This document shows, piece by piece, positions 11,582 through 33,325 of a stretch of 64,000 bases of DNA (positions are counted from its first letter, which is position 1; each line of letters starts with the position of its first letter). Origin of the DNA: Microbacterium sp. AB (lineage in GTDB: Bacteria > Actinomycetota > Actinomycetes > Actinomycetales > Microbacteriaceae). Location of the stretch: NCBI RefSeq assembly GCF_032878875.1, contig NZ_CP118157.1, forward strand, positions 2,046,001 to 2,110,000, in the 5' to 3' direction. The translations under genes were made by a program, and so were the position numbers. Under the pieces are notes generated by a model. That model was given only the letters and a program-made list of their open reading frames with translations, did not search any database and was not told the DNA's origin.

Positions 11582-11757
11582 GCGTCGCCGCCTCACGATC
11601 GGCCGGAGCGTCTGTCGTCAACGCGCACCGGCCGGCCACGCGGCCGTTTCGGGCAGCGATGAGAGCCACGCGCGCCGAGACGTGAAACGCCGCTCAGCGG
11701 AGCTCCTGGATCACGTCGAACGATCCGCGCGTCTGCGAAGATGTCGACGGCAGAGTG

Positions 11758-11792
11758 GCTGGGGTACCTGGACTCGAACCAAGAACAACTGA
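11758..11792. repeat. attL: displaced 3' end of tRNA-Gln
   Basis: Thirty-five bases identical to 33291-33325, covering the acceptor and T-arm end of tRNA-Gln up to the anticodon arm. Identity stops at 11793. This copy lacks the 5' part of the tRNA and is the piece of the original gene displaced by integration. Confidence 0.9.
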
Positions 11793-11919
11793 GAGCCACC
11801 TGGCCCGTCCGAGCGAAGCCCCGAATCGGTGGAGTTCCCCGTAATTTCAGGGATCTCATGGGGTCGAGTCTACCGACAGCTACGCAGTGATTCGTGCTGA
11901 TTCGCGCCTCTCAGGAGGA

Positions 11920-11946: not shown

Positions 11947-12888
11947 TCAAGTGCCCTCCGGGAGACTGTCGCTCGGGACAGACGACGAGGCGATAGCGTC
12001 GATGACCTGATTAAGCCACTCACGCGCAGCGGCGATGTCCGGCAGTACGGGCGTCTGGCCGTCGACCTCCGTCTCGGCGCGCGCGTCGGCGTAGGCGAGT
12101 TCCCACCCGCCCATCGGGCGCAACGGGAGCGGCGGCCATGCCTGCTGCCGTCGCCAGTCGAACGTGCGCACGCACAACCCCCACAAGACTGGCAGATCAG
12201 GGCCGGCATTCCAGAGGAGTTGCAGGTCGACCAGGTCATGTGCTCTCACGTAGGCAGGATCGGTGACAGCGTGGAGCTTCTGCGCGATCTGGTACTCCAG
12301 ATCGACGAGCTCAACGGGTTGCAGATCCCCGAATCCGAAGTAGGCACCGAACTGCACAAGCTCGCCGTCGATCTCCTTTCGCGCATGCGCGTAGGGATCG
12401 ATCTCGGGATCCGAGACCTCAACATCAAGCGCACCCCAGGCTGCGCCGAGGAACGCGATCGACACCCGGTACGGGTGCATCACATACTCCGGTCGAGCGA
12501 GCCCCGGGTCATGGAGCTTCACCGTTCGGACGGTCGCGGTGAACGCGACGCGTTCGGGCGCATCCGGATCGCGACGCAGCTCGCCCTTCGACGCCGGCAC
12601 TGTTCCCCATCCCTCGGCCAAACGCGCACGGAACGCCTGCTCGAACTCCTCGCCGCGGACGCGGGTGGAGACATCGAGGTCGGAGGTAGCGCGTGTACCG
12701 CGCTCGCCGAAGCGCAGCTTCACACCCATGCCGCCCTTGACGGCGACAGCATCGGGAAGCATCTGTGACACGATCAGCGTGCAGAGCATCACTCGAGCAC
12801 GCGCAATCGGGATACGGAGTTCGGCGGCGACCTGCGCGAGCCGGGCATTGAGTTGCGTCACGTTCAGCGGCGGGGCCACTTCAGTCAC
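11947..12888 (-). CDS. abiEii: AbiEii/AbiGii-type nucleotidyltransferase toxin
   Basis: 313 residues with a DNA polymerase beta-like nucleotidyltransferase core. The sequence VKGGMGVKLRFG (GG at about 52-53) followed by TSDLDVSTR (D70 and D72) gives the GG-(x)n-DxD pattern of the AbiEii family. AbiE toxins are bacteriostatic nucleotidyltransferases, and related enzymes modify tRNA 3' ends. GTG at 12888 overlaps the antitoxin stop by 4 bp (GTGA), as is usual for abiEi-abiEii pairs. It is the gene closest to attL. No operon partner other than the antitoxin is seen. Confidence 0.85.
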   Translation of the reverse strand: MTEVAPPLNVTQLNARLAQVAAELRIPIARARVMLCTLIVSQMLPDAVAVKGGMGVKLRFGERGTRATSDLDVSTRVRGEEFEQAFRARLAEGWGTVPASKGELRRDPDAPERVAFTATVRTVKLHDPGLARPEYVMHPYRVSIAFLGAAWGALDVEVSDPEIDPYAHARKEIDGELVQFGAYFGFGDLQPVELVDLEYQIAQKLHAVTDPAYVRAHDLVDLQLLWNAGPDLPVLWGLCVRTFDWRRQQAWPPLPLRPMGGWELAYADARAETEVDGQTPVLPDIAAAREWLNQVIDAIASSSVPSDSLPEGT

Positions 12889-13418
12889 GCCGACACCGCC
12901 TTCCCTGCAGCCGCGTCCTGCTCGCCGATCAAGTCTCGTCTGAGCGCCTCATCGACCATGTCCTCCCATCGATCCGGCGGCATCCGATCGCGCATGTCCT
13001 CCAGTGCCCGCTGAACAGTCGTCGCCGGGATGCCCTCGTAGTGAGTGAGATCCTCTTCGGGTACGTCAGGCCGGTTCTCCAGTTCCATCCACTCTGGCAA
13101 CGTGCGCCGTACGCGGCGGCGCGTGCCCACACGCACCTTCGGCGGATTGAATTGCCCGAGCCCGAGCAGATCGAGCACGGATTCGCGGTGTAGGAACGCG
13201 CCTTCCCCGGCAAGAGCCACGGCAACCAGCGGTTCGGTGAACGGGGACGTCGGCACGTCGCGGTGCGTGTATACACCCTGCCCGTATCCGCGGAGCGCAC
13301 CGCGAGCAGCGAGCTTCCGCACCTCGACGGCAGGCACGCCCGCGTCCTCCGCCTCGGCGACAGTCACCACGCCGTTGCGGGATGCAGCGAGCTCCCAGAG
13401 ATCTATCCGGTATCCCAT
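12885..13418 (-). CDS. abiEi: AbiEi-type antitoxin and transcriptional repressor
   Basis: 177 residues when started at ATG 13418. The N-terminal winged-helix region (IDLWELAASRNGVVTVAEAEDAGVPAVEVRKLAARGALRGYGQGVYTH) matches the AbiEi_4 DNA-binding domain, and the rest matches AbiEi C-terminal helices (EGIPATTVQRALEDM). AbiEi neutralises the AbiEii nucleotidyltransferase and represses the operon by binding inverted repeats in the promoter. An upstream ATG at 13508 in the same frame would place the promoter palindrome inside the gene, so I rejected it. GGGTGG lies just upstream of 13418. Confidence 0.85.
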   Translation of the reverse strand: MGYRIDLWELAASRNGVVTVAEAEDAGVPAVEVRKLAARGALRGYGQGVYTHRDVPTSPFTEPLVAVALAGEGAFLHRESVLDLLGLGQFNPPKVRVGTRRRVRRTLPEWMELENRPDVPEEDLTHYEGIPATTVQRALEDMRDRMPPDRWEDMVDEALRRDLIGEQDAAAGKAVSA

Positions 13419-13438
13419 CGCTTCCACCCTTCGCCAAA

Positions 13439-13468
13439 ATAGTACCATTAACGGTACGGTTATGACAG
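13439..13468 (-). promoter_or_regulatory. abiE promoter with operator palindrome
   Basis: On the minus strand TACTAT (13444-13439) is a fair -10, with CTGTCA (13468-13463) 18 bp upstream as a possible -35. The 16-bp imperfect palindrome GTACCATTAACGGTAC (13442-13457) spans the spacer and -10. It is a likely AbiEi binding site for autoregulation, as known for AbiE systems. Spacing to the ATG at 13418 is about 20 bp. Confidence 0.5.
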
Positions 13469-13601
13469 GCCTGCAGCACTCGCATGAGTACCCAAACGTC
13501 AGTTGCACGGCAGGTTCGCCTCATCGGCCGTGATGAGCTCCGCACGTCCGGCTCGAGCCCGGTTACTCGACGGGGAGTAATACGGGCCTGGGGCCGACTC
13601 C

Positions 13602-14147
13602 CTAGTCGCCGATACCCGCCACCGCCACCGCCGCATCCAACGCGACAACGTAATCGATCAGCATTCTGATCGCCTCCTCGACCGACTCTCGAGTAATGAT
13701 GATGCTGCGACCCACCACCGAGACATGCAACTTCCGCTCCAGGTTTCGGCGCAACTCGTTCGCCCGAGACCAATTCGTGGTCTGCATGGTAGTCAGTGCT
13801 CCGTCACCATGTGCGAGAGCATTACGGGCATCGACGATGAGCATCAAGTGCTGAACAAGAGTCTGAGGTTCGATGACAATGCCGAACCCATCCCGCAAGA
13901 CCTCCTGACGGGCCGACCAGTTCTGCTTGAACGCCGGTGTAGAACGCCCGATCAAGAACTCACCAAGCCTGGATCGCCGCGCGGGCGACAGGTCGAAGAG
14001 CTGCTGGATAGTTTCATCGACGTGGGCTTCCGTCGTCGCAACCGCGACTGTGAGGGCGGATGAAGGTGGGGTTCGCTCTATGAGTACTCGTGCCAGTCTG
14101 CGAGCTGTCACCTCCGCTTCTGCGCCGACCATGCCGCTAACCAGCAT
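13602..14147 (-). CDS. HEPN-domain protein, partner of the reverse transcriptase
   Basis: 181 residues, mostly helical. The segment LIVDARNALAHGDGALT (about 104-118) contains R108-N-A-L-A-H113, the Rx4-6H motif of HEPN ribonuclease domains, in the usual context of an acidic residue just before it and a G-rich turn after it. HEPN domains form the C-terminus of AbiA-type reverse transcriptases and are effectors in many toxin and abortive infection systems. Here the domain is a separate gene whose ATG overlaps the RT gene by 11 bp, with GGGGGAG upstream. Base composition is noticeably lower in GC than in the flanking core genes. RNase activity is inference. Confidence 0.65.
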   Translation of the reverse strand: MLVSGMVGAEAEVTARRLARVLIERTPPSSALTVAVATTEAHVDETIQQLFDLSPARRSRLGEFLIGRSTPAFKQNWSARQEVLRDGFGIVIEPQTLVQHLMLIVDARNALAHGDGALTTMQTTNWSRANELRRNLERKLHVSVVGRSIIITRESVEEAIRMLIDYVVALDAAVAVAGIGD

Positions 14148-15624
14148 TCACACTCCCCCACTCGTACGCGGCTCGAACTAGCTGCGAATCTGCCTGCATT
14201 GCTTTACCAAGTTTCGAGGGAGCCTCGCCGTCAAGCTTTCCCACGACTGCAGAAACGCCGCACCGTGTGATGCTCGTCGACTCCACGAACAGGTCGGCAA
14301 GTTGCTCAGCAGTGATGGCATGTGAATGAGATAGTGCCCAGGCCGCTTCTGCACGAACTACTTCAGACCTGTCTTTTAGGCATAGCTGCGCCCAATCATC
14401 GAAGGGAACACGATCGGCGGCCTTTGGTACCGTGAGCGTCTCGGCCATCCTGAGCAGCCATATTCGCGCCCACGATGACGTCCTGGGTAGGGCTACCAGA
14501 CGAGCTACCGTCGCCCAGTTCTCGCGGTGCTCTGGCCTCGCTCGTAGGTAGACGAGCACATTGCGAAGATGAGGAGGCTCCCTTGCGACGATTTCCAACA
14601 GCCAGTCGTCCGGAAGCCGCTCCGGTGCCGCCCGAAGAACGCGCAGTGCGCGGGAGCCGAATGTGGCGTGCAGAGTGCGCTGCTCAGGGTCGCCCTGTAC
14701 CCAGTCCTCTACAATCCCCTTGAGTGCTGCGAAGTCGACTTCATCGTCGGGCGCGTCGATCTCTTCGAGCTCAAAGTCTTCGTAGCCAACCTGGACAAAC
14801 TCCATCGAGCGAAGATTGTCTGCCGCACGTGAGCGATAGCCGTCGAGTAGCGCCTCACGCTCCTCCTCCGCCTCCTGTAGCTGCTTCACCGAGTGGATTC
14901 GTGTCTTGCCATCGGCGAGAGTGAGCCCAAGAGACCGAGCTTCCTCTACGACAAGCTCAATAGCATGGTGCGCGGATGCCCAGTCCTGCGAGATGACTCG
15001 GAAGTCATCGGCAAAGCGATTGACCTCGTAGCCTCCCCGACGGATACCGCGTTCGACACGATCGAGATACACATCGGCGAGCAAATGACTTGCCGACATA
15101 GCCTGCGGGATTCCGACCGCTCGCGGAAACAAATCTCCAAGAAGGTCCGACAGTGAGCGCGACGCTTCATGATCCAGGCTCTGCATCAAGATCTCGTCGG
15201 CGAGGATGCGGTGATCGACATACTCGTAGCAGGCCGCGATATCCACGTCGACAATCCTCACTTCGGATGGTCGTCCCGGATCGACGCCGAACGCACGATG
15301 AGCGTGGATTCCCTGCTCACGAGACGGCTTAGGAAGGTGCGGCTGGAGTCGGCCGACAATTGACTCATAGATCGTCCGTGCAACTGGGGAAAGGATCCCG
15401 ATCGGCCTCGGACCGTACCCCCGTTTCGGCATCGCAATCACGTCCATAGTGGGAGTGTGACCCGCAATAGACATCGCTTCAGCGGATCCTGCCAGCACGT
15501 CAACCCCGTCAACCAGAGCCCGCTCGGAGATCAACAGCGGCAGCTCCAAGAGCGGCCGAGACACCACTTCCTTCGCCGACTCCTCGAAGCGCAGACTCTT
15601 CGCAAACTCCGGAGAGAGTCTCAT
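14137..15624 (-). CDS. Reverse transcriptase with helical-repeat C-terminus (AbiA/DRT-like)
   Basis: 495 residues. The RT core occupies about 60-250: MPKRGYGPRPIGILSPVARTIY (motifs 0-1), VDVDIAACYEYVDHRIL with D128 in motif A, AVGIPQAMSASHLLADVYLD (motif B, where the usual PQG is PQA), RFADDFRVIS with D206 and D207 in motif C, and GLTLADGKTRIHS (motif D). The remaining half is alpha-helical with HEAT-like spacing, as in abortive infection RTs. No group II intron maturase or retron features are present. Its ATG overlaps the GIY-YIG gene by 4 bp and its 3' end overlaps the HEPN gene. The exact RT class needs a phylogeny. Confidence 0.85.
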   Translation of the reverse strand: MRLSPEFAKSLRFEESAKEVVSRPLLELPLLISERALVDGVDVLAGSAEAMSIAGHTPTMDVIAMPKRGYGPRPIGILSPVARTIYESIVGRLQPHLPKPSREQGIHAHRAFGVDPGRPSEVRIVDVDIAACYEYVDHRILADEILMQSLDHEASRSLSDLLGDLFPRAVGIPQAMSASHLLADVYLDRVERGIRRGGYEVNRFADDFRVISQDWASAHHAIELVVEEARSLGLTLADGKTRIHSVKQLQEAEEEREALLDGYRSRAADNLRSMEFVQVGYEDFELEEIDAPDDEVDFAALKGIVEDWVQGDPEQRTLHATFGSRALRVLRAAPERLPDDWLLEIVAREPPHLRNVLVYLRARPEHRENWATVARLVALPRTSSWARIWLLRMAETLTVPKAADRVPFDDWAQLCLKDRSEVVRAEAAWALSHSHAITAEQLADLFVESTSITRCGVSAVVGKLDGEAPSKLGKAMQADSQLVRAAYEWGSVNAG

Positions 15625-16781
15625 AGTTCGGCCCGTCCAGTCAGTTTGCGCGCGGATGAATCGTAGACGAAGTCGATGATGCCGCCCGACGCGATCAATG
15701 AAACAGCCTGGTCAATGACCTCGATCGGCACGATGTACCATTCTGACGGCTCATAGCGGCGCCCGTCTTTGCCGACCTGGCTAACGTCGAGACGTACCTC
15801 AGCGAACACACGGTGCAGCAGGTTCTCGAGCGCCGATGTCCGCATATTGTACGTGCGGTATGACGCCACGATTTCCACTGGTGCCATGAGGTAGGTGGGC
15901 TGCTTCTCAGCATGGGCGATCCGATCCTCGGCGGGTCCGCGAGAAAAGCCGATCTTGTGGAGATCCGCGATGCCTGCGATCTGCGGGTCGTCGCTGAGCG
16001 AGCGCAGGACGTATACGTAGCCGGTTGCGACGTCATCGGCCAGGATTGACTCGAACTCTGCCGGAACGACAGCCTGGCCGTGCCCCTCGCCCATGCGGAT
16101 GCCGAGCGACTGCCGGTACATCGAGGACTCAGTGCCGTTCTCGAAGATGACGCGCAGCCGTTCCCGGCGGTTCACGCGAACGGTGGTGGTCTTGTACTCG
16201 GTCTCGCCAACATCAGCGATGAAGAGCATCACACCGTTGAGGACGAAGAACGCGCCCTCGACGATGTGTTGCATCCCCGGGAACGCCACCAGCTTCGATG
16301 CGCCGTTCGCGAGCTCTGCATGCTGTTGCTGGAACAGCGGCTCGAACTGCTCGAAGTCCTCTGCGCGCACACGCTGGGCCGCATCGACCGATGCTTCCGG
16401 GCTCTTACGCTGCGGCAGATCGGAGGTGTCGAGAAGCCCACTGTCGTCATCGAGCAGCCCGAGATCGTCACCTTCGAGGAGATCATCGAGGGAGGCCGGC
16501 GCTTCCGGCTCGACGAGCAAGCCGAACTCGTCCAGGTGCTTGAGCGCCGCGATCTTGTCGTCGCTGGCCAGGATGCCATCGAGACGTGCACCGAGCTTGC
16601 GCTCCGCGATCTCTCTGGTGTCCGAGCGCGGTGGCCGCTCATGCTCGAGGTAGAACTCGACGATCTCGAGGAACGACCGCTCGAGCCGGTCGGAGCTGGT
16701 GAGCTTGGGAGCCTTCTCCGGGGTGTCGAGGAGGCCGTCTTCGTCCGAGTCGAAGATGCTCTGGAAGTCGGTATCGCTCAT
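15621..16781 (-). CDS. GIY-YIG nuclease family protein (T5orf172/MUG113-like)
   Basis: 386 residues. The first ~130 residues are acidic and look linker-rich, and a middle region (about 140-250) is unassigned. The C-terminal third is a GIY-YIG domain: GYVYVLRSL (254-262), LHKIGFSRGPAEDRIAHAE (275-292), ALENLLHRVF with the conserved Glu (about E319), and YEPSEWYIVP near 343-352. This form, with KIGxS instead of YIGxS, is the T5orf172-type arrangement. It lies between the helicase and the RT with 4-bp overlaps on both sides. It is the only recognisable nuclease of the preceding methyltransferase and helicase module, so it is the likely cutting subunit (inference). Confidence 0.8.
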   Translation of the reverse strand: MSDTDFQSIFDSDEDGLLDTPEKAPKLTSSDRLERSFLEIVEFYLEHERPPRSDTREIAERKLGARLDGILASDDKIAALKHLDEFGLLVEPEAPASLDDLLEGDDLGLLDDDSGLLDTSDLPQRKSPEASVDAAQRVRAEDFEQFEPLFQQQHAELANGASKLVAFPGMQHIVEGAFFVLNGVMLFIADVGETEYKTTTVRVNRRERLRVIFENGTESSMYRQSLGIRMGEGHGQAVVPAEFESILADDVATGYVYVLRSLSDDPQIAGIADLHKIGFSRGPAEDRIAHAEKQPTYLMAPVEIVASYRTYNMRTSALENLLHRVFAEVRLDVSQVGKDGRRYEPSEWYIVPIEVIDQAVSLIASGGIIDFVYDSSARKLTGRAEL

Positions 16782-18751
16782 GACTCCTGCAACCTCTGCT
16801 GGGCTTCGTGCTCGCGCTTCTTCTTGCGCAGGAACAGCAGCGCTTCGGCGTAACGCTTCTCGGTCGGGTCATCGCTGCGCACGTCGGGCTGGCGTCGGTT
16901 GACCTTGGCGAACTGCTGGATCTTCGGCCAGAGCAGCCGCGCCTCTTCCTCGGTGATCTCGATACGGGTCGCCGTGATCGTGTCCTGGATGATGCGCAGC
17001 ACCTGTGGCGTCACCGACTTCGAGAGCACCTCGAAGGCGCGCTGGAACGGGTTGACCTTGTCGATTAGGTTGATGTCGAGATCGTCGACATCAAAGAAGC
17101 GATTGTTCAAGATGAACTTCTTGCTCCCGCCAACTTCACGTGCCTCGCCGTTCTTGATCACGGAGTCGACGACAACCTGCTGGCGCAGCTCCTCGACCTG
17201 GGCCTCGTTGAGATCGGGATAGCGCTCCCGGATGATCTTCGGGATCAGCACCTTGTTGGCCACCTCGGCGTCGAGGTTGCCCGCCGCGGCCTTGACGAAG
17301 GTGTCGTCCTGCAGGATCGTCGCCTTGAGGTCGTTCAGGTCAGTGGCGACGATCTGCTTCACGCGATCAGTAGACGGCTCCTTGAAGCCCTTGATCCGAA
17401 GCTCCCCCGGCTGCGGCGCATCGTCGTTTCCGGTCTTCGTCTTGAATGTGAAGTTCGGTGCCAGCACCTGCTCCATGAGCAGGGAGGCGGTGATCGCCTT
17501 GAGCATGTTGTTGACCGAAAGCTTCACCTCATCGGTGGTCGCGTCGGGCTGGGCGATGAGGTTGGTGAACTGCGCGTGCTCCTTGCCAGGGCTGTCGCGG
17601 GTAACCCGCCCGATGATCTGGATGACCTCGGTCAGCGACGCCCGGTAACCGACAGTCAGGGCGTGCTCCGCGAAGGGCCAGTCGAAGCCCTCCTTGGCCA
17701 TGCCGAGTGCGATGATAATGTCCACCGCGTCGCGCTCCTTCGAGGCGACCGAGGTCAGGTAGTGCAGGGTCTCAGCACGGGCGATCTGGTCGGTGTCGTC
17801 AACGAGATCCGCCACACGCACGATCTCGCCGTTGTCGCGGCGACGAATCCGCATGACGTTGGATTCCTCGGTCTCGGTCGAAATGACCTCACCGATGGCA
17901 TCGAGGATGAAGCCGACCTCCTCGATCTTGTCCTTGGTGGACTCGCCGCTGTTGACGTTCGGGATGTGGATGATCGTCTTCTTGTCGAGATCGAGGATCT
18001 CGTGGATCGCGCTCGTGTAGCGGCCCTGGTAGAAGTGGTGCCCGATGCCGAGCGATTTGAGATACTCGTAGCCGTTGAGCTGGTCGTAGTAGTTGAACGT
18101 GACCGGCGTGAACCTCGCCTCATCCTCCGGCAGCAACACCGGCACCGAGTCACCCCGGAAGTACGAGCCGGTCATCGCGACGATGTGCGCATCCGACCCG
18201 GCCATCACGCCCTTGAGGAGATCGCCGAGGCGATTGCTTGCGGTGTCCGCCGAAACGTGGTGGAACTCGTCGATGGCGAGCACCGTGCCGTCGAACGTAG
18301 AGGCGGGCAGCTTCTCGTAGGCGAAGCGCAGCGTGGCGTGGGTGCAGACAAGGGTGGCGTCCGGCCCTTCCAGGAAGTCGATGAACTGCTGCACCTTGCC
18401 CGACGATGAGCCGGGCATACAGAGGTTGTTCTTGTCCTTGATCTCCCAGTCCGCAAAAAAGCCGAACCGGCTCAGAGTCGTCGTCGAGAACGATCCACCG
18501 ATGGAGCGCTCGGGCACAGCAACGATGACCTTCTTGCGGCCCTGGTTGTAGAGCTTGTCGAGCGCGACGAACATGAGGGCTCGAGACTTGCCCGAGGCCG
18601 GCGGCGCCTTGACGAGCAGGTACTGCGCACCACGCTGCTCCCAGACACGCTGCTGCATCTCACGCATGCCGAGCTCGTTGGTGTGGACGCTGTTGCCAGT
18701 CTGCGCATACGTCACATTGACGATGTTCGTCGGCTTCTTGATCTCGGTCAC
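16778..18751 (-). CDS. Superfamily 2 DEAD/DEAH-type helicase
   Basis: 657 residues. Walker A is APPASGKSRALM (49-60), motif II is IDEFHH (160-165, a DEFH variant of DEAH), motif III is MTGSYFRG, and motif VI is QIIGRVTRD (378-386). LGMAKEGFDWPFAEHALTVG is the motif V region. The helicase core is followed by about 250 residues of mainly charged helical sequence that I cannot assign. SF2 enzymes of this type serve as translocases in type I and III restriction systems and other defence systems. The start overlaps the methyltransferase stop by 4 bp and the stop overlaps the nuclease start by 4 bp. Confidence 0.88.
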   Translation of the reverse strand: MTEIKKPTNIVNVTYAQTGNSVHTNELGMREMQQRVWEQRGAQYLLVKAPPASGKSRALMFVALDKLYNQGRKKVIVAVPERSIGGSFSTTTLSRFGFFADWEIKDKNNLCMPGSSSGKVQQFIDFLEGPDATLVCTHATLRFAYEKLPASTFDGTVLAIDEFHHVSADTASNRLGDLLKGVMAGSDAHIVAMTGSYFRGDSVPVLLPEDEARFTPVTFNYYDQLNGYEYLKSLGIGHHFYQGRYTSAIHEILDLDKKTIIHIPNVNSGESTKDKIEEVGFILDAIGEVISTETEESNVMRIRRRDNGEIVRVADLVDDTDQIARAETLHYLTSVASKERDAVDIIIALGMAKEGFDWPFAEHALTVGYRASLTEVIQIIGRVTRDSPGKEHAQFTNLIAQPDATTDEVKLSVNNMLKAITASLLMEQVLAPNFTFKTKTGNDDAPQPGELRIKGFKEPSTDRVKQIVATDLNDLKATILQDDTFVKAAAGNLDAEVANKVLIPKIIRERYPDLNEAQVEELRQQVVVDSVIKNGEAREVGGSKKFILNNRFFDVDDLDINLIDKVNPFQRAFEVLSKSVTPQVLRIIQDTITATRIEITEEEARLLWPKIQQFAKVNRRQPDVRSDDPTEKRYAEALLFLRKKKREHEAQQRLQES

Positions 18752-21426
18752 TTGCGCTTCTCCTCGGCAGTCATCTGTTCATACATACCGAAGAGGTATG
18801 ACAGGCGCTCTTCGTCGCTGTCGAAGCCGCGCTTGCGGTAGACCGCGTCCACGAGCTCGTCCAGCTCCTGGTGTGCCAGGCGAAGGTCGTCGGGCATCAG
18901 GTCAGGGTCGTACAGCTCCGCCAGCGTCTTCTCGGAGTGATACTCGCGTACGTCGAGCACGCGGAGGGCGGCATCGGTGAGCTGTTCCTTGGCTGCGGCG
19001 GACAGTGACGGCACCGGGAAGTTGTTGTAGACGATGGTGCCGGAGTAGCGGTAGTCAGTCTTCATTCGGCCTGCGACCGCTCGAACCCAGGTCATGTGTG
19101 TACGGGAGGTGAGAAGGGCGAACGTCCACGGTTCCACTTCATAGGCGGCATTGGCTGAGTTCGAAATGACCGTGTTCCGGTCGAGATAGCCAATCGGGAT
19201 GTACTCGCGGCGCTCGGAGGTGGTAGCCGGTACGATCACCGAGTCGCTCTCCCGGTGAGCGAAGAAATAGAACCGATGCGGGGTTTCAGCAAGAGCACGA
19301 GTTGACTTCTCGGTGCTCTTGGCACGGTGGTCCCGAACCTTATCCAGCCGTACTGCGATCTCATCGATACCGAGCGCGGCTTCGAGATCGTCGTCGCTGA
19401 TAACGAGGCACCACCGGCTCTTACCTTTGATGAACTCGTCGGAACCGCTGAAGCCCCGAACGAACCGAGACGCTTCCGGCCAGCGCTCGAGGAGCGTGTC
19501 GCGCTGGTCATCGGTGAGCAAGAGATTGCCTCCGTCGTTCGGCATCGATCCGAAGCCAAGTCGAGGGAGCACTGGGCTCAGAGGCGCGCTCCTACGACCA
19601 ATCCAGATGTCTGGGCCGTCCGCCAGGTATGCGTTGATCCGATTCACTTCATGCCGAAGCTCATCCGAGAAGATGAACTTCGGCGCCTCCCCTTTGTTCC
19701 GAACCCCGACAACGACGCACGTAACGCCAGCTGCGTTCTTCGCCTGGTTCGACCACCTGAACGACGTGTAGGCGTACCCGATCTCTAGGTCGTCCTCGAG
19801 TACGTCCGGCCAGAGAAGCCCTACCTGTTCACCCTGTGTAACGGAGTTGGTCGAGACGAGCGCCAACTCAGCTTTGGTTCCCCGGATGTACTCGCCGCCC
19901 TTGATGAACCAAGCGCTGACGTAGTCGAGACTCTTGTACCGTGGCGTGACCGACTGCAGATCGCGCTTATGCTCAGACGTCTGGTTGCGGCTTCCGAGGT
20001 ACGGCGGATTGCCAATCACATAGATCTCTTCGGCACCCGTGTTCGGGCACACCTCATTCCAGTCGCGCGTGATCGCGTTCCCCTGATGGATGCTTCCAGA
20101 TTCCTTCAGCGGGATCAGTGGCAGGTCGATGCCGAATTTCTCACGGAACTCAACGTTCATCTGATGCTTCGCGATCCAGAGCGACAAGATCGCGACCTCC
20201 ACCGCGAAGTCGTCAATTTCGAGTCCGTAGAAGTGCTCGACATTGATCCGGGAGCCGAGCAGGTTGAAGGTGAACTTGTCGCCCTGGAGCCCCTGAAGCC
20301 GCTCCAGGATGGCATGCTCGAGCTTGCGCAATTCCTTGTAAACGATGACGAGGAAGTTGCCAGAACCACAGGCGGGGTCGAACACCTTAATCCGCGCGAT
20401 GCGCCGCAGCAGTGCTTCTAGCTTGGGCGCGCTGTCGAAGGCAACATCGAACTGCTCCTTGAGTCCGTCGAGGAACAGCGGCTCGATGGTCTTGAGGATG
20501 TTCGGCACCGAAGTGTAGTGCTGCCCGAGATCGGAGCGCTGACCGGGCGTGACGACTGCCTGGAACATCGAGCCGAAGATGTCGGGGTTGATCTCGTTCC
20601 AGAGCAGCCGACCGCTCTCCAGCAGCAGGTCGCGAGCCTTCTTGTTGAAGGTCGGCACCGTGTGGTGCTCCTCGACCGTGAATAGGCGCCCGTTGACGTA
20701 AGGGAACCCTGCAAGATGTGTCGGCTTGTTGGCAGGGTCGGCAGTGTCCAGCGCGGTGAAGAGATCAGTCAGGAACTGGCTGACGTCCGAGCCATCGGCT
20801 TGTGTGAGCGTGCCGACGGCCCCGGTGAACTGCCCCTCCTTGAAGATGCCGGTGTCCTCTGCAAAGAAGCAGAAGAGCAGCCGTGTAAAGAAGACGTTCA
20901 GGGCGTGACGCCCGAGCGTCATGGTGTTGAGCTCGGGGTTGAGCGCCAGCAGCTCATCGAACAGCTTCGCCATGCGCTCGGCAGCCTTGACATCAGCATG
21001 GGCCTCAGCAACGTACTGGGCTTTCTCCATGCCTGCCCACGGCAGGAAGAATGTGAAGTGCTTGTCGATGTCCGAGATCGGGATGGCGAGCGAGTCGTTC
21101 GTCTTCGTGTCGACGGCCAGCAGCTCTTCGTAGTCGGTGACGACGACGAAGCGAGTGTTGTAGCGAACCACGGTCGGTGCGCTGCGGAGCTCATCGATCA
21201 CCCCCAGAAGGTCGTCCGTCGTCTCCTTGAAGTAGATGACGTTCTTCTGAGCGACCTCGGTCGACGGATCATCGGCGACGTTGAGCGAGCCGTTGCGCAG
21301 GCGCGTGATGTTGCTCGACGAGCGCCCGTACGCGGCCAGCAGCTCGAAGATGAACTCCCGGTCGTAGTGGCTGCGTCCGCCGAGCGGCCTGACACGCTCC
21401 TGGACGGACTTGAGGTTGAGCCTCAT
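18748..21426 (-). CDS. MmeI-like class I DNA methyltransferase
   Basis: 892 residues. Motif I is KVFDPACGSGNFLV (348-360) and the catalytic adenine-methylase motif is VIGNPPYLG (470-478); GQHYTSVPNIL before motif I is the X motif. The region after NPPY has target-recognition character, and the C-terminus (LYDPDLMPDDLRLAHQELDE onward) matches the MmeI C-terminal domain. The N-terminal third aligns in outline to the MmeI N-terminal region, but I do not see its D...ExK nuclease residues, so the protein may methylate only. The enzyme would modify adenine in the host target. GGGGGAGG lies just upstream of the ATG at 21426. Confidence 0.88.
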   Translation of the reverse strand: MRLNLKSVQERVRPLGGRSHYDREFIFELLAAYGRSSSNITRLRNGSLNVADDPSTEVAQKNVIYFKETTDDLLGVIDELRSAPTVVRYNTRFVVVTDYEELLAVDTKTNDSLAIPISDIDKHFTFFLPWAGMEKAQYVAEAHADVKAAERMAKLFDELLALNPELNTMTLGRHALNVFFTRLLFCFFAEDTGIFKEGQFTGAVGTLTQADGSDVSQFLTDLFTALDTADPANKPTHLAGFPYVNGRLFTVEEHHTVPTFNKKARDLLLESGRLLWNEINPDIFGSMFQAVVTPGQRSDLGQHYTSVPNILKTIEPLFLDGLKEQFDVAFDSAPKLEALLRRIARIKVFDPACGSGNFLVIVYKELRKLEHAILERLQGLQGDKFTFNLLGSRINVEHFYGLEIDDFAVEVAILSLWIAKHQMNVEFREKFGIDLPLIPLKESGSIHQGNAITRDWNEVCPNTGAEEIYVIGNPPYLGSRNQTSEHKRDLQSVTPRYKSLDYVSAWFIKGGEYIRGTKAELALVSTNSVTQGEQVGLLWPDVLEDDLEIGYAYTSFRWSNQAKNAAGVTCVVVGVRNKGEAPKFIFSDELRHEVNRINAYLADGPDIWIGRRSAPLSPVLPRLGFGSMPNDGGNLLLTDDQRDTLLERWPEASRFVRGFSGSDEFIKGKSRWCLVISDDDLEAALGIDEIAVRLDKVRDHRAKSTEKSTRALAETPHRFYFFAHRESDSVIVPATTSERREYIPIGYLDRNTVISNSANAAYEVEPWTFALLTSRTHMTWVRAVAGRMKTDYRYSGTIVYNNFPVPSLSAAAKEQLTDAALRVLDVREYHSEKTLAELYDPDLMPDDLRLAHQELDELVDAVYRKRGFDSDEERLSYLFGMYEQMTAEEKRK

Positions 21427-21481
21427 CGGATCGGGCCTCCCCCGTGTCGTGCCCTGAGCCCACGGTGGGCAGTTGCGCCGC

Positions 21482-21670
21482 TCACTCTACGTCCGCCGTT
21501 CCGGCGCGGCCGCTCCGCACCCACTCGTCGATTTCGCTCGTCTGGAACTTCCAGAGGCGACCAACCTTGTGGGCGGGCATGTCCTTCTCCGCGATCCAGG
21601 CGTAGACGGTGTCCTTCGTCACACCGAGGTGGGCCGCGATGTCGTCGGCCGAGAGCCAAGGCTCAGTCAC
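21482..21670 (-). CDS. Small excisionase/AlpA-family helix-turn-helix protein
   Basis: 62 residues: WLSADDIAAHLGVTKDTVYAWIAEKDMPAHKVGRLWKF is a complete HTH_17 (MerR-like excisionase) domain. GTG at 21670 has AGGAGG six bases upstream. It is the first gene of the operon that continues with the methyltransferase 55 bp downstream. Proteins of this type often head restriction-modification and mobile operons, acting as controllers. The palindrome ACCGGGT-N3-ACCCGGT 24 bp upstream of the start is a plausible target. It is separate from the excisionase-like gene next to the integrase. Confidence 0.85.
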   Translation of the reverse strand: MTEPWLSADDIAAHLGVTKDTVYAWIAEKDMPAHKVGRLWKFQTSEIDEWVRSGRAGTADVE

Positions 21671-21694
21671 AAGCGACCTCCTACGCCGAATCAG

Positions 21695-21724
21695 ACCGGG
21701 TTTGACCCGGTTCCCTTGATCCTA
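21695..21724 (-). promoter_or_regulatory. Operator-like palindrome and weak -10 upstream of the six-gene operon
   Basis: A perfect 7-bp-arm inverted repeat, ACCGGGT and ACCCGGT with a 3-nt centre, occupies 21695-21711. TAGGAT (minus strand, 21724-21719) just upstream could be a -10, placing the palindrome over the transcription start; no convincing -35 was found. This is the only candidate promoter for the approximately 8-kb operon. The HTH protein encoded first may bind it (inference). Confidence 0.4.
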
Positions 21725-21807
21725 CCGGGCTGCACTTGGGCGTAGGTAGGGCGAGTTGGGTCGCATGCCTCTTCTGCCCGATCTATGCCGCCCTCTAGGA
21801 TCGGGAC

Positions 21808-22332
21808 ATGGCAGGCATCATCGGAGACGACGCGATGCCATCGCCTGCGCCCACCATGTCGCTCTCCGCAGCACAGGGCCGCTTCGGCGTCGACTACCTG
21901 CAGCTCGCCTGTAGCCACGCCGGGTTCGGCTGCAGCGAGCCTCGCCCGGGCGAGGACGTTCGCGCGATCGACGCGACGATCGGCTTCGAGTACGGTGACG
22001 CCCACGTGCAGGTGAAATGCACGACGAAGACGTTCAGCCCGAAGCGCCAGACCATCCGCATCCCGGTCGAGGAAGAGTGGGTCGCGTCCTGGCAGAAGTT
22101 GCGTGTTCGAGGTCCGGTTTATCTTGTGGTCGTTCAGGTGCCCGAGCAGGCGAAGTGGATCGACTACCCGGCATCCCACACGCTGGTGGCCGCGACCGCG
22201 TACTGGGCAGCGATGGATCCGTCGACGACGCCGAAGAGTCTGGTGGTTCACCGCAATCAGCAGCTCACGGTGGAGACGCTACGGGATTGGGCACTCGAAC
22301 GACAGCTTGCAGTCAACGGAAAGGCGGCGTAA
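21808..22332 (+). CDS. DUF4365 family protein, PD-(D/E)XK nuclease-like
   Basis: 174 residues. EDVRAIDATIGFEYGDAHVQVKCTT gives an acidic residue on one strand and QVK on the next, the D...(Q/E)xK arrangement of restriction-endonuclease-like folds that defines DUF4365. The N-terminal SLSAAQGRFGVDYLQLACSHAGF matches the lead helix of the family. Catalytic competence is not proven, since the family often has Q in place of E. It is divergent from the methyltransferase operon with a 137-bp gap, and starts a three-gene run with a 3-bp gap and then a 4-bp overlap. Confidence 0.78.
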   Translation: MAGIIGDDAMPSPAPTMSLSAAQGRFGVDYLQLACSHAGFGCSEPRPGEDVRAIDATIGFEYGDAHVQVKCTTKTFSPKRQTIRIPVEEEWVASWQKLRVRGPVYLVVVQVPEQAKWIDYPASHTLVAATAYWAAMDPSTTPKSLVVHRNQQLTVETLRDWALERQLAVNGKAA

Positions 22333-22335
22333 CCC

Positions 22336-24709: not shown

Positions 24710-27700
24710 CTACAACGATGGCCCGTCACGGTATGCGGAGGAACCTCGGCTCTGTTCATGCCCGAGGATGTCGAGCCGCTTCGCGCGCACTTCTGCTGCC
24801 TTCCGCGCCCGTGCAGCGGCGAGGCGCTGAACCTCGACCTTGGCAGCGCGCTGGTGGACGAGCTTGACCGCTTCATCTGGCGAAAGCGCATCAAGTTGGG
24901 CGAGGTAGCGGCGATCCTGCGCCGCCTGCTCGCTCAGGGCCTTCACCCGCGCGGCAATCGCGCTCGGACGCCGGTTCCCGAGGACGCGCTCGTACGGCGC
25001 TATGTGCTCCCGCGACTGCCTCGCGGCGATCTCGCTGACCTGCGTGGCTTCCGCGCGTGCTTCGACGACGGCGGGCACATGGCCGGCTTCGTGCTGGGCG
25101 ACTGACTCGGACCACGCGGGCAGATTGCTCTCGCTGCGGGGGACGCTCTGCCACCGGTCACGCACGACCCTCTCTGCCGCCTCGCGACGGGCGTCTGCGC
25201 CGTCCGCGGTTCGGGTGGCAAAGCGCTTGCGGAACCGAGATGCTCTCTCCTTGGCCCGGCGTGCCGCGATAGCGTCCTGCTGCGCAGCCAGGAACGCGGC
25301 GCCATCCGCGACTGCTTCCTGTGTCAGCGACTCCACAACGTCCGCGAGTACCGCAGCTGCCTTCGCATCTGCGGCTTCCGCGAGCTCGCGCTGCGGCTCG
25401 TACTCGGCCTTGTGTCGTTCGGACTGGTCGTGCAATCTGGCGGCTGCCGCCACCCAGTGCTCTCGCTCCGCGTCAGCCTTCGAGATCCGCTCGACAATCC
25501 GGTCGCGCTCCGCGCCGACGATGGACATAGGCCCGTCCGCAACGAGGTCCGCGACGGCCTCACGGGCGCGTTCGGCGGCGTCTTCCAGGCCGCGGTCGGC
25601 GCGGTCTCGGGCGAGCGCATCGACGAACTGCTGCTTCGCGTCTGCGAGATCGCTGGCGACGATGTGCAGCCTGTTCGTCTCGCGCCCGCGGGTCATGCCG
25701 ACATAGATGCCTGCCGCATCAAGCGCGTCGGAGAGCAACGTGTGTGCCGCGTTCACGGTCGAGCCCTGGACGCCGTACGCGGTGACCGCGTAGGCCAAAT
25801 GCGCATCTTCGGTCACGTACTCCGCAGGCAAGGTCATGGTGCGCTGCTGCTTACGGCCGTTGCCGGTCTCGACGATGTTCAGCGCGCCGTCTTCGCCGAC
25901 GTGCTGCACCGTCCAGGTCTGCCGGTTGGCAACGCCGAGCGTGGACTCGTTGCGGCGGGTCTGGATCACGTCCCCGGTGCCGATGGGGAGCCCGTCGCTG
26001 CCGAGCACCGTCCGCGCGTCGTCGACTTCGCCGCGGTCGACCCGCTCGGCACGGACGCGTTCGTTCAGCCCCCGGGCCTCGTCGTTCGTCGCCGCGGTGA
26101 TCGCATCGGCCGGGCGCGTCGTCCTGGCAATGTTCTCCCGCACGTCGTGGTCGGTGTCGTGCAGGACGATCAGTCCGTGCTCGTTCAGCCGATCGAAGAT
26201 CGCGGCGGGGTTGCGGGCATGCCGCAGCTCGAGCGTGAGCGCCGCATACGCAGGGTCGGTGAAGCGGTGCAGGCTCGTCATATCGACGACTGCTGGGCTG
26301 AGTTTGGTGGCGATGTCGAGAACGCCTCCGCGTCCGACCGCGGGGAGTTGCGCCCGGTCTCCGACGAGCGCGACAGTCACCCCGGCTTCGTCCGCGACTT
26401 GCAACAGGGCGAGGGCGGAGTCTTGGTCGAGCATCCCTGCCTCGTCGACGACGATCCGCTCACCTCGCGCGAGACGCGCCTCCTGCACCGGCCCCCGATA
26501 GATGCCTCCGGTTTCGGGATCGGCGTCCCCGGGTCGCAGGCGTGTCCACACGCCGTCGCTGTTCCACCGGAACCCATGCGCGTAGATGAGCGTGGCCACG
26601 GAGTCAGCGGGGATGCCGAGTTCCTGGGCAGCAACGTCGGCAGCCTTCTTCGTCGGCGTGACGACCCGCATTCCACGGCCCTCCGCGGCTGCGGCGGCAA
26701 TCGCAGTCTTGAGCATCGTGGTCTTGCCCGACCCGGCCGCGCCTTCGACCACGACGAGCGGGTTGCGGGATGCGACGACTGCGGCTGCATGTTCCTGGGC
26801 ATCATCCAGTCCCGCCAGCACCGCAAACTCGTGTACGTCCGGAATGTGCTGGTTGGACTTCTCCGCGCGAGCGGTGAGCAAGTCGCGCAGTTCCGTCTCG
26901 GCAGCGACGACGCGCAGCGATGTCAGATGCGCGACGTGTTCCGGCGTCGGCGCACCGGGTGGGAGGACGGAGAGGCAATCCGATGCCGCGAGCTGCGTCG
27001 CCAGTTGCCCGAACACTCGCAGCTCCTCGGGGGTGGCTTGCACACCGTGCTCGGTGGTGATGCGGGTGACGTGCTCGCGCAGCGTGTGCACCGTCCACGC
27101 CGATGCACCCGCCGCCGCACGGTCAAGCGCACGCGATGCGACTTCCTCGATGCGCAGTTCGTCGAGTGCAACCGGTGCAGGCCTGCGCACCCGAGGTGCA
27201 TCCGGGCTATAGCCGGCGTCTTCAATCTCCGCACGCCAACCGGCCTCGCTGCCAAGCACCGTGGGCTTCTTCCCTGGGCGTTGGTGCTCCCACGCCTTCG
27301 CTTTCAGCCGCGCCCGCACGACCGGCCCGGGTTCCTCACCAGGATGCGCAGCTTCCCACTCGGCCCCGAAGTTGGCGAGGTTGCGTTCGACCTGCGCGCC
27401 GCGCTTCGACAGCGCCGCGTTGTATGGCTCCAGCTCCGCGACCTCTCCGGTCGCCGGGTCGAGCGTGAGACCGTGCTTGTCGAGTACGGCGGCGAGTTGC
27501 GGGTGCGCGGCGATGATGGCGGTGCCGAGAGCACGGATGGCTCCCTGCTGCTTGAACAAGGCTGCGGTGTCCAGACCGCGCCACTTTCCCGTGGCGTAGA
27601 CGCGAGTGCCGATCTGGAAGTGGATGTGCCGGTGCGGGTCACCCGCACGGCTGGTCTTGTGCGCGACGGCGACGGTCTGCAACTGCTGCACCGGCACAAC

Positions 27701-28138
27701 TTCTCGCGCGTGCCGAGGCCCGACCCGGGTGACCGAGTGCTGAGCGAGCCACCGGCGGATCTCCGCCGCCGCATCCTGTTGCGCGGCGTCGAGCGCGTCG
27801 GAGACCTCCGGGTGCAGGGCGGCGGCGATGGAGAGGGACTTCGGGGCGTTGATCACCATCTCCGCGAACCGCGGCGAACCCCGCATGCCCTCGCCCGCGC
27901 CGCGCGGGGCTCCCATCGAGGTGCCGCTGATCGGGTCCGTCCAGTCCACCCATGCGGCGTACTGCTCCGGGTCGAGCGTCCGTCCCTCGATGACCTCGCC
28001 CGCGGAATCGGTGACGGTGAACTCCGCGAGCGCGGTGCCGCCCTCCAAGTAGTACTCGTCGGCAGTGGACCTGTCCGCCTCCAGGTATCGGCGTGCGGCC
28101 GCGCCGGTACCGCGAAACAGGATCACACCGCCTTTCAC
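24710..28138 (-). CDS. MobF family conjugative relaxase-helicase
   Basis: 1142 residues. The N-terminal TrwC-type relaxase begins with GGVILFRGTGAAARRYLEAD and DEYYLEG, with candidate active tyrosines at Y18 and Y29-Y30. The metal-binding histidine triad is PHRHIHF (H169, H171, H173). A RecD2-like helicase follows, with Walker A EGAAGSGKTTM at about 480 and VVDEAGML as motif II. The last 250 residues are coiled and Ala/Glu/Arg rich. GTG at 28138 was chosen because AGGAGG lies 7 nt upstream and MobF proteins start at this point; earlier in-frame starts lack a site. It would nick the island at an oriT and unwind the strand for transfer. Confidence 0.93.
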   Translation of the reverse strand: MKGGVILFRGTGAAARRYLEADRSTADEYYLEGGTALAEFTVTDSAGEVIEGRTLDPEQYAAWVDWTDPISGTSMGAPRGAGEGMRGSPRFAEMVINAPKSLSIAAALHPEVSDALDAAQQDAAAEIRRWLAQHSVTRVGPRHAREVVPVQQLQTVAVAHKTSRAGDPHRHIHFQIGTRVYATGKWRGLDTAALFKQQGAIRALGTAIIAAHPQLAAVLDKHGLTLDPATGEVAELEPYNAALSKRGAQVERNLANFGAEWEAAHPGEEPGPVVRARLKAKAWEHQRPGKKPTVLGSEAGWRAEIEDAGYSPDAPRVRRPAPVALDELRIEEVASRALDRAAAGASAWTVHTLREHVTRITTEHGVQATPEELRVFGQLATQLAASDCLSVLPPGAPTPEHVAHLTSLRVVAAETELRDLLTARAEKSNQHIPDVHEFAVLAGLDDAQEHAAAVVASRNPLVVVEGAAGSGKTTMLKTAIAAAAAEGRGMRVVTPTKKAADVAAQELGIPADSVATLIYAHGFRWNSDGVWTRLRPGDADPETGGIYRGPVQEARLARGERIVVDEAGMLDQDSALALLQVADEAGVTVALVGDRAQLPAVGRGGVLDIATKLSPAVVDMTSLHRFTDPAYAALTLELRHARNPAAIFDRLNEHGLIVLHDTDHDVRENIARTTRPADAITAATNDEARGLNERVRAERVDRGEVDDARTVLGSDGLPIGTGDVIQTRRNESTLGVANRQTWTVQHVGEDGALNIVETGNGRKQQRTMTLPAEYVTEDAHLAYAVTAYGVQGSTVNAAHTLLSDALDAAGIYVGMTRGRETNRLHIVASDLADAKQQFVDALARDRADRGLEDAAERAREAVADLVADGPMSIVGAERDRIVERISKADAEREHWVAAAARLHDQSERHKAEYEPQRELAEAADAKAAAVLADVVESLTQEAVADGAAFLAAQQDAIAARRAKERASRFRKRFATRTADGADARREAAERVVRDRWQSVPRSESNLPAWSESVAQHEAGHVPAVVEARAEATQVSEIAARQSREHIAPYERVLGNRRPSAIAARVKALSEQAAQDRRYLAQLDALSPDEAVKLVHQRAAKVEVQRLAAARARKAAEVRAKRLDILGHEQSRGSSAYRDGPSL

Positions 28139-28440
28139 CCCGGGCCTCCTCACGACTCGTCTCATGAGGGAGGTGCGCACGCCCCACCAGCGGTGGCATA
28201 CGTCCATGAATGAATCTGAGAGGAGAGCCGCAATCTGTAGAGCTCGCGGTGGTGAGGTTCGCTGGAGCCGCAGCTGTGTCAGGCCATCGGCTATGGCTTC
28301 AGAGCCTGGGGCGTGCTCGCAGGCGGCGACGCCTTCTCATGGCCTGAATGTCAGCCACGAGCACTACCCTGGGTTCACGACGTGATATGCCCAAGACCCT
28401 CACGACGTGCAGATGGAGATGAGCTGAGGAAGGTGCGCCG
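28139..28440. other. Non-coding region upstream of the relaxase; candidate oriT
   Basis: No gene is visible here. It contains a 9-bp inverted repeat, TCAGGCCAT (28279-28287) and ATGGCCTGA (28339-28347), and two copies of the near-palindrome CACGACGTG (28376-28384 and 28401-28409) 25 bp apart. Transfer origins commonly lie next to the relaxase gene and contain such repeats, so this is the best oriT candidate. The nic site cannot be placed. The copies nearest 28441 could instead control the rightward membrane-protein gene. Confidence 0.35.
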
Positions 28441-31702: not shown

Positions 31703-32908
31703 TCACGTGCCAAGGATCGTGTCGAGGATGTCGGCGGTGACGACATCAACTTGCTCAGCGGTGATGACGTAGCTGTTGCGAGTGACCATCTCGTTCGCGT
31801 GCCCAAGCAACCTCGACGCGATCGTGAGCCCCGCCGCGCGCTCCACGAGCGTCGCAGTGGTGCGCCGGTAGATGTGCGTCGAGTACTCGTCGACCTCGAC
31901 GCCGAGACGCACGAGCTCATCACGGTTGTCGTCGATGAACGAGCGCAGCAGCCGCTCATAGTTCGACACGCTCATCGGCTTACCGGTCTTCGTCGGGAAC
32001 AGCAACGCCTCGGGCCCACGCTCTGCGAGTGCGAGTCGGCGTCGCACCGCGTCGGCTGCGAGAGCTGGCAGCGCGACGCGGCGACGCTGTCGAGTGCGTT
32101 TGGGTGCGTTCTTGCGCTGGACGCCCTGCACCTTGTTCTGGATCACGGTGCCGTCGATCAGGATTGTCGGCGGGGCGGTGGTCATATCCACGTCACAGCG
32201 ACGCAGGCCGATGCACTCCCCCACACGGGCGGAGGTGCCGAGCATGATGTCCATGCCGTCCACGAGCGCCCGCCAGTTCGGGCGCGGCCCCATGCCCTCC
32301 GTCTCGCGCCAGTGCGTCATGAGATCGCGGATCGCCTCGATCTGCTGCGGGAGGAGCATCGCGGTCTTCTTCTCCGGCGTCGGCAGCCGGGTGACGTCGC
32401 GCACCGGGTTCGTCGGGATCGCGTCGTCGCGCACGGCGAACCCGCAGATGAGCGACAGCACCGAACGCGCCTTCCGCGCCGACGACACGCCCCGGTCGGC
32501 GAGAAGGTTCTGAATGATCCGGTCGCAGCGGCCGACCGTGAGCGCCTCCAACGTGACGCCACCACAGACGGGGACGAGCGTGAGACGGACGGTGGTCTCG
32601 TAATTCTCGTACGTCGACCACGACAGCGTGCCGTTCTCAGCGCGCACCTTCACCGTCGGCAGCCACGCCTCCGCCGCCTCCGCGATGGTCGATCCGGCAG
32701 TGACGATGGCCTTCGTGTGAGTCGTCATCGTCTTCGCTCGTGAAAGCAGTTCTTCGCGGGCTGCATCCTCGGTGGCGCCTTCGGCGCGGAGTTGCACCAG
32801 CTCGCCGGAGTCGTTGCGCATCCGGGCGCGTGCCCGCCATTTGCCGTTCGTGAGCTGTGTCACCTGCACCTGGCCGACCCCGCCCGCGGCGATCTTCGGC
32901 CTAGCCAT
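31703..32908 (-). CDS. Tyrosine recombinase (phage-type integrase) of the island
   Basis: 401 residues. An Arm-binding-like N-terminus is followed by a core-binding SAM-like domain (AEAWLPTVKVRAENGTLSWSTY split region) and the catalytic domain. The active residues are R228 (SARVGECIGLR), H345 and R348 (STHIYRRTT), H370 (LLGHANE) and Y380 (NSYVITAE). It should catalyse integration into and excision from tRNA-Gln 400 bp away. ATG at 32908 overlaps the excisionase-like gene by 8 bp; an ATG at 32920 is possible but redundant. The arrangement of xis, int and tRNA at one end is classical for tRNA-targeting elements. Confidence 0.93.
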   Translation of the reverse strand: MARPKIAAGGVGQVQVTQLTNGKWRARARMRNDSGELVQLRAEGATEDAAREELLSRAKTMTTHTKAIVTAGSTIAEAAEAWLPTVKVRAENGTLSWSTYENYETTVRLTLVPVCGGVTLEALTVGRCDRIIQNLLADRGVSSARKARSVLSLICGFAVRDDAIPTNPVRDVTRLPTPEKKTAMLLPQQIEAIRDLMTHWRETEGMGPRPNWRALVDGMDIMLGTSARVGECIGLRRCDVDMTTAPPTILIDGTVIQNKVQGVQRKNAPKRTRQRRRVALPALAADAVRRRLALAERGPEALLFPTKTGKPMSVSNYERLLRSFIDDNRDELVRLGVEVDEYSTHIYRRTTATLVERAAGLTIASRLLGHANEMVTRNSYVITAEQVDVVTADILDTILGT

Positions 32909-33101
32909 GACGCTGCTCACGCGCCCAGGCGAGCACGTCGTCGCGGTCGTACTTCACGTGCCGGCCGAGCTTCAGCCACGGCGGCCCGGACTTCGTGAGC
33001 CGCCAGCCTTCGAGCGTGCGCTCGGGCACGCCCAGCAGCACGGCGACCTCGGCCTGGGTCAGGAACGCGGGCTCGACCTCGATGCGTACATGAGCTTCCA
33101 T
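32901..33101 (-). CDS. Excisionase-like helix-turn-helix protein
   Basis: 66 residues if started at ATG 33101 (MEAHVRIEVEPAFL). The sequence LTQAEVAVLLGVPERTLEGWRLTKSGPPWLKLG is a complete HTH_17 excisionase/AlpA domain. An in-frame upstream start at 33218 would run through the inner island-end repeat and is unlikely. It overlaps the integrase gene by 8 bp. Proteins of this type bind near attachment sites and direct the integrase towards excision; the inner repeats at both island ends are candidate sites. Confidence 0.85.
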   Translation of the reverse strand: MEAHVRIEVEPAFLTQAEVAVLLGVPERTLEGWRLTKSGPPWLKLGRHVKYDRDDVLAWAREQRHG

Positions 33102-33222: not shown

Positions 33223-33290
33223 CGCCAAATCGGGCCACTCGATGGAGTGAGAAGGGAGCCGGACTTCCTAGAGAACTCTAGCGATTCGTT

Positions 33291-33325
33291 GCTGGGGTAC
33301 CTGGACTCGAACCAAGAACAACTGA
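33291..33325. repeat. attR: 35-bp repeat within the intact tRNA-Gln 3' end
   Basis: Matches 11758-11792 base for base and overlaps the acceptor and T-arm half of the tRNA-Gln gene. Integration has rebuilt a complete tRNA here. Confidence 0.9.

Follow-up and report, generated by a model that had tools for sequence, protein, structure and literature searches.

Two probably self-sufficient defence modules stacked in one operon of a Microbacterium integrative element: a DnmA-YeeB-YeeC module and a UG22 reverse transcriptase-HEPN pair

Do six tightly packed genes that join a restriction-like set to a reverse transcriptase (RT) and a HEPN protein encode one layered phage defence, or two defence modules that came to lie side by side? 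This question is raised by an operon of Microbacterium sp. AB in NZ_CP118157.1, positions 2,046,001-2,110,000, a stretch of 64,000 nt that we analysed as a whole and call the window; the genome holding it comprises 3.64 Mb in a single contig. The six genes lie on the minus strand within window positions 13602-21670, in the order helix-turn-helix (HTH) protein, methyltransferase, superfamily 2 (SF2) helicase, GIY-YIG protein, RT and HEPN protein. A sequence-only reading of this DNA had named the same six genes and domains, and open reading frames together with Pfam, PADLOC and NCBIfam profiles confirmed them all. Each half usually occurs without the other in the genomes examined, and for this reason we consider the operon most likely a stacked pair rather than a new single system: probably two defence modules, each known separately and sufficient by itself, came together within an integrative element in tRNA-Gln that carries them as cargo, and are now translationally coupled. 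The genes are, in order of transcription:

21482..21670, minus strand, HTH_17/excisionase-type DNA-binding protein of 62 aa, likely the operon regulator (PF12728, 1.6e-15)
18748..21426, minus strand, DnmA/MmeI-like N6-adenine DNA methyltransferase of 892 aa (five MmeI Pfam domains, best 1.4e-98)
16778..18751, minus strand, YeeB-like SF2 helicase of 657 aa (PF00270, 4.2e-7)
15621..16781, minus strand, YeeC-like T5orf172/GIY-YIG protein of 386 aa, likely a nuclease (PF13455, 2.6e-13; PF10544, 8.1e-11)
14137..15624, minus strand, UG22 RT of 495 aa with C-terminal helical repeats (PF00078, 3.7e-14; PADLOC RT_UG22, 1.5e-151)
13602..14147, minus strand, HEPN protein of 181 aa with R108-x4-H113 (PADLOC RTasHEPN, 4.1e-39)

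The gene arrangement suggests that the six genes form one probable transcript. A gap of 55 bp separates the HTH and methyltransferase genes, and from the methyltransferase start onwards the junctions overlap by 4, 4, 4 and 11 bp, exactly as first counted. At the GIY-YIG/RT junction an ATGA lets the GIY-YIG stop share 4 bp with the RT start codon, and this overlap suggests shared transcription and translational coupling. A promoter had been placed before the HTH gene. The space for it exists, since the 137 bp at 21671-21807 are the sole gap longer than 55 bp upstream of or inside the operon, but a sigma-70-type scan, which may overlook actinobacterial promoters, recognised none there; over 11700-22400 it returned two promoter-like sites, both on the plus strand, against 1.5 expected, and none on the minus strand. 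The fraction of G+C at third codon positions is 0.79-0.88 in the three module enzymes versus 0.63-0.69 in the RT-HEPN genes. An RT-associated noncoding RNA was considered and rejected: Rfam matched tRNA only, and the window has no room for one between the GIY-YIG and RT genes, the upstream regions of other RT loci not having been searched for conserved RNA.

We then counted how often the two halves meet, using genome and related-locus searches as well as tblastn against plasmids and phages. The UG22 RT had matches in 10 of 366 genomes of the genus, the window's included; G737, G417 and G652 are distant relatives among these ten, no HEPN was found beside the G652 RT, and the G417 HEPN rests on a profile match in the same contig, L050. 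In the wide regions around the other nine genus loci, the methyltransferase-helicase-GIY-YIG module lay beside one RT only, that of M. nymphoidis (G507). An alignment-based scan of genome contigs yielded 26 RT loci, 19 with HEPN and one with the module, which proved to be M. nymphoidis again (L042); the upstream view is narrowed by short contigs at L041 (1.8 kb), L047 and L048 (3.5 kb each), L056 (4.8 kb) and L050 (6.3 kb). A single-protein scan of genome contigs gave no matches, and the RT as single query in the phylum sample found 2 of 396 genomes, its own and G316. Once six contig loci that are also genus loci were counted a single time and the pair on a plasmid of Rhodococcus sp. H-CA8f was added, there were 23 RT-HEPN loci, and the module adjoins two of them, window included. 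Starting from the other half, the GIY-YIG protein is present in 10 of 366 genus genomes, in 2 further genomes of the class sample (394) and in 11 further ones of the family sample (398), and RT-HEPN accompanies 2 of the 23 genome loci of the module, again counting the window. Without the window, 1 of 22 loci is paired in each direction. The sequence-only reading had itself accepted that it would fall if the RT/HEPN homologues usually lay away from the methyltransferase, helicase and nuclease genes, and with only 2 of 23 adjacent this is what we found. Among mobile replicons, the GIY-YIG scan of viral contigs gave no matches, while the RT scan gave three weak relatives, with no module or HEPN match in the two searched; tblastn against phages produced one weak match. 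RT matches were present in 119 plasmid records, of which the best (H1) was examined for neighbours; among the 40 plasmid matches listed, most were from Sinorhizobium at about 30% identity and several were annotated as group II intron RTs.

The two paired loci have separate histories. In a tree of the RTs, in which 6 of 11 inner branches lack resolution, the window RT groups with that of G316 and the G507 RT with that of G639 (100/100 and 99/100). G507 and G639, another species, have a 3.8-kb stretch in common (89.6%) that begins at the RT start codon and contains the RT, the HEPN gene, a small HTH gene and a gene for 435-442 aa; this cassette lies behind the module in G507 and away from it in G639. 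From the tree groupings and the shared cassette we conclude, on sequence grounds, that the module/RT-HEPN junctions of the window and of G507 arose independently. In G507 a truncated PDC-S11 gene, followed by a gap of 123 bp, also separates the halves. Conversely, G633 is 80-84% identical to the window in DNA from the HTH to the GIY-YIG gene and lacks RT-HEPN; the similarity stops at window position 15661, 40 bp short of the GIY-YIG stop, and the next gene matches the Orf5, mREase_IV and HEC-06 profiles. Elsewhere in the genus the place behind GIY-YIG is taken by PDC-S11 (G557) or a PDC-M36A-like gene (G520, partial match). Altogether, among the genes scanned, a defence gene, known or candidate, lies downstream at 6 of 10 genus module loci; for the place behind GIY-YIG the PADLOC scan took in ten proteins, nine from six of the nine other genus loci and one from L017, with the genes of L035, L036 and L037 left out.

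Several details of these loci are worth recording. At L018:11664-13367, the shared cassette carries the small HTH gene (identified by eye; disrupted in G639) and the 435-442-aa protein, which has no Pfam match. In G639 (L017:11705-16681), a further methyltransferase/helicase-like set is found some 1 kb away from the RT-HEPN cassette, and a protein of 1095 aa there looks by eye like a GIY-YIG-helicase fusion, with type IIG as its only PADLOC match (6e-24). In G557 (L039:3666-8002), the PDC-S11 start overlaps the GIY-YIG end, a NucS_C match is weak and below the cut-off, and a UG5 RT-nitrilase of 1000 aa is encoded. G459 (L034:6614-10471) has a CBASS set of cyclase, E1-E2 and NucC effector directly behind the module on the opposite strand.

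By sequence and gene order, the three enzymes following the HTH gene are the DnmA-YeeB-YeeC module already described in PMC9973331; the accessible part of that paper reports an MmeI-like methyltransferase without a restriction endonuclease (REase) motif, followed by an SF2 helicase gene and a T5orf172/GIY-YIG gene, with conserved synteny and a link to defence islands. The cluster of Bacillus subtilis resembles ours in gene order, in the missing REase motif and, as far as the available text goes, in its position in a mobile island with toxin-antitoxin genes, whereas the window has in addition an HTH gene in front and RT-HEPN behind on the same strand. All five MmeI Pfam domains, among them MmeI_N, are recognised in the methyltransferase, which aligns with the solved MmeI 5hr4 at 2.3e-180, although this alignment starts only at residue 90. 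For MmeI we take the catalytic residues to be D70, E80 and K82. At the expected E-x-K position, which was set by offset from an alignment that begins after these residues, Y-F-K stands in all ten alignment rows, window included; with the N-terminal nuclease motif absent at this offset-placed position the protein does not qualify as a single-chain Type IIL/IIG MmeI enzyme, and an unusual active site is possible. Its best-fitting PADLOC profile matched B. subtilis alone among 14 control genomes (E up to 1e-30). Other motifs are present: NPPY-473 in the methyltransferase, GKS, DEFH and QxxGRxxR in the helicase, and GYVYVL-254, LHKIG-274 and SALE-316 in the GIY-YIG protein.

The helicase and T5orf172/GIY-YIG genes occupy the first and second place downstream of the methyltransferase in all 23 genome loci, and the three genes are also together in five plasmid loci (Rhodococcus twice, Proteus, Niallia and Agrobacterium). 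In four of these five, the methyltransferase gene shares 4 bp with the helicase gene, and the helicase gene 4-14 bp with the GIY-YIG gene; such overlaps are therefore a property of the module and carry no information on the RT. The Proteus terrae plasmid locus has a shortened methyltransferase gene adjoining an IS26 copy, and the helicase gene of G633 (L032:6552-8512) is split across two frames, by sequencing error or decay. An HTH homologue lies upstream of the methyltransferase in G633 (91.7%) and G1463 (83.9%), thus in 3 of 23 module loci counting the window, at thresholds with which a query of 62 aa may overlook others. Membership in MADS was rejected: the HTH protein scored 76 bits with the NCBIfam equivalog MADS1 against a cut-off of 80, and MAD2 reached 17.2 against 720 bits.

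The RT and HEPN genes are, judged by their profile matches, the UG22 RT and its HEPN partner, both of which are profiled in the PADLOC DRT set. The genes are adjacent, with HEPN directly after the RT, and the matches nearly full-length (RT_UG22 aligned over 2-476 of 476, RTasHEPN over 4-146 of 148); the window differs from the PADLOC pair in the 4-bp overlap of the RT start with the GIY-YIG stop. RT residues D128, D206 and D207 are invariant among 14 RTs, and HEPN residues R108, N109 and H113 among 13 HEPN proteins. The HEPN protein had no Pfam match at 0.01, and a Foldseek search with it did not confirm the HEPN fold. The predicted RT model matches the fold of DRT4/DRT6 and AbiK/Abi-P2 over nearly the whole chain, but DRT4 and DRT6 are described as single-gene systems, whereas the window RT has a HEPN partner. 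The pair had been labelled AbiA type, which is inexact because RT and HEPN are two genes, overlapping by 11 bp, and the best RT profile is UG22. Lactococcus AbiA likewise unites an RT with a helical domain and a HEPN domain, but in one chain and from another RT group (PMC11077055), and membership in AbiA was rejected on this account. No published function of UG22 was found in the literature searched, which did not reach the main UG/Abi survey (Mestre 2022).

The operon is carried by an integrative element of about 21.6 kb in tRNA-Gln, at window positions 11755-33325. Its main features, and the genes next to the operon, are:

11755..11792, no strand, left element end, a 38-bp copy of the tRNA-Gln 3' end (repeat, 97%)
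33288..33325, no strand, right element end (repeat), reaching into tRNA-Gln (33291-33363)
31703..32920, minus strand, tyrosine integrase of the element (PF00589, 6.5e-12)
24710..28207, minus strand, TrwC-type relaxase/helicase of the element (PF08751, 1.4e-41; AAA_30, 5.3e-44)
12885..13508, minus strand, AbiEi antitoxin-like gene, the next after HEPN with a 93-bp gap (Pfam/PADLOC profiles)
11947..12888, minus strand, AbiEii nucleotidyltransferase toxin-like gene (Pfam/PADLOC profiles)

A second pair of repeats lies just inside the ends (11917-11946 and 33193-33222). In G563, G568 and G525, similarity on the gltX side starts at 33285-33291, the tRNA end, and stops short of the element interior; in G751 (L095), a sister element of about 14 kb shares the end sequence, and its integrase region is 71% alike. 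AbiEi and AbiEii form a type IV toxin-antitoxin-like pair. On the other side of the operon, at 21808-24644, the divergent neighbours are a DUF4365 gene and a partner that match the PADLOC candidate pair PDC-M02A/B, followed by a DUF4238 gene.

If the operon is a stacked pair, the methyltransferase would mark host adenines at a specific site, and the SF2 helicase and GIY-YIG nuclease may form the arm that cuts unmarked DNA, a division of labour suggested because the methyltransferase appears from the alignment to have lost the MmeI nuclease motif. As with its structural neighbours DRT4, AbiK and AbiA, the product of the UG22 RT would most likely be untemplated DNA primed by protein. HEPN, the regular partner of the RT, could either have a role in assembly, like the HEPN of AbiA, or be an RNase effector; the AbiA HEPN had no RNase activity in vitro (PMC11077055). 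The overlap of the RT and GIY-YIG genes would place both halves under shared transcription and couple their translation, and the two would act additively on phages. Functional coupling of the halves is possible.

Several observations weigh against two independent modules, and most of them favour the layered system that the sequence-only reading had proposed, in which restriction acts first and an RT/HEPN arm, held by restriction subunits, is set free by a failure of restriction or by DNA damage. The six genes form a single-strand operon with overlapping junctions, and the GIY-YIG/RT overlap is tight; the halves were joined twice independently; and in the genus they co-occur twice against 0.27 expected when the window is counted, both cases adjacent (P = 0.027, or 0.013 with the seven closer RTs only, values that ignore kinship and defence-island crowding). 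We left the window out of a second test because it had been chosen for having both halves, and one case then stands against 0.22 expected (P = 0.20, likewise uncorrected), no more than chance would produce. A third module locus, G557, also has an RT, of the different UG5-nitrilase type; it is encoded on the opposite strand, about 1.3 kb past GIY-YIG. Further, an empty integration site was not seen, window 6001-11754 having no match in 7-19 kb around tRNA-Gln of four relatives (G563, G568, G525 and G751). A precedent for layering exists in PrrC-PrrI. To our knowledge PrrC has no RT partner. As here, restriction and HEPN genes share one locus in PrrC-PrrI, and there, according to the accessible part of PMC3710099, which also makes a general proposal for HEPN genes in restriction-modification (R-M) operons, the HEPN anticodon nuclease is masked by the R-M enzyme. 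The layered system is nevertheless unlikely in our estimate: the halves pair in just 2 of 23 loci from either side and each has been described separately, those of G507 are parted by the truncated gene and its gap, and unrelated defence genes occupy the place behind GIY-YIG in other genomes. The earlier reading thus stands where it recognised two known defence families in one probable transcript and lacks support where it made them one system.

A quite improbable alternative is that the module is a relic limited to methylation, with an orphan methyltransferase of the kind deduced in B. subtilis, and that RT-HEPN is the live defence. The part of PMC9973331 available to us reports that deletions of dnmA, yeeB and yeeC had no phage phenotype with three B. 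subtilis phages, a failure to restrict that also tells against a self-sufficient defence module, though it recounts another study in which deletions in the Vibrio crassostreae cluster affected some phages. Against a relic, the helicase and GIY-YIG motifs are intact in the window, and none of the 23 loci has the methyltransferase without helicase and nuclease, though one of ten genus copies, that of G633, has the frame-broken helicase. Stacking could also be without functional meaning, a result of defence-island crowding in a mobile element with RT-HEPN merely read through from an upstream promoter. The AbiE genes and PDC-M02A/B pair in the element and the six of ten genus loci with a defence gene downstream agree with this. 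This reading is compatible with the stacked pair, from which it differs solely in denying any benefit of coupling; we consider it very unlikely. More speculatively, and with little confidence, the 3' end of DnmA-YeeB-YeeC may be a site where second-line defence genes preferentially settle, those found there being UG22 RT-HEPN (twice), PDC-S11, a type IV/HEC-06-like gene and a PDC-M36-like gene; RT-HEPN would here be tied to YeeC through translation, and restriction activity, through free DNA ends or nuclease loss, would thereby control untemplated DNA synthesis and HEPN action.

The sequence-only reading knew of no description of this combination. We did not find it in the literature searched, beyond which the main UG/Abi survey (Mestre 2022) lies, but each half and the layered idea are already in print. 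In the part available, Anantharaman et al. 2013 (PMC3710099) table the C-terminal HEPN of AbiA as RT-fused and 'in operon with R-M system'; for R-M operons that contain HEPN genes they propose that restriction acts first and HEPN follows, so the layered restriction-plus-HEPN idea is not new. The accessible text of PMC8934634 likewise places AbiA in operons with R-M genes and one AbiK apparently within an R-M locus.

The window offers an HTH-fronted DnmA-YeeB-YeeC module with intact motifs and an actinobacterial UG22 RT-HEPN pair, of a kind for which we found no published study. G633, which lacks RT-HEPN, and the one RT-HEPN cassette in two neighbourhoods are natural comparisons for additive versus synergistic stacking. 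The tempting single-system reading is corrected here: even perfectly overlapping genes of one operon can belong to two portable defence modules.

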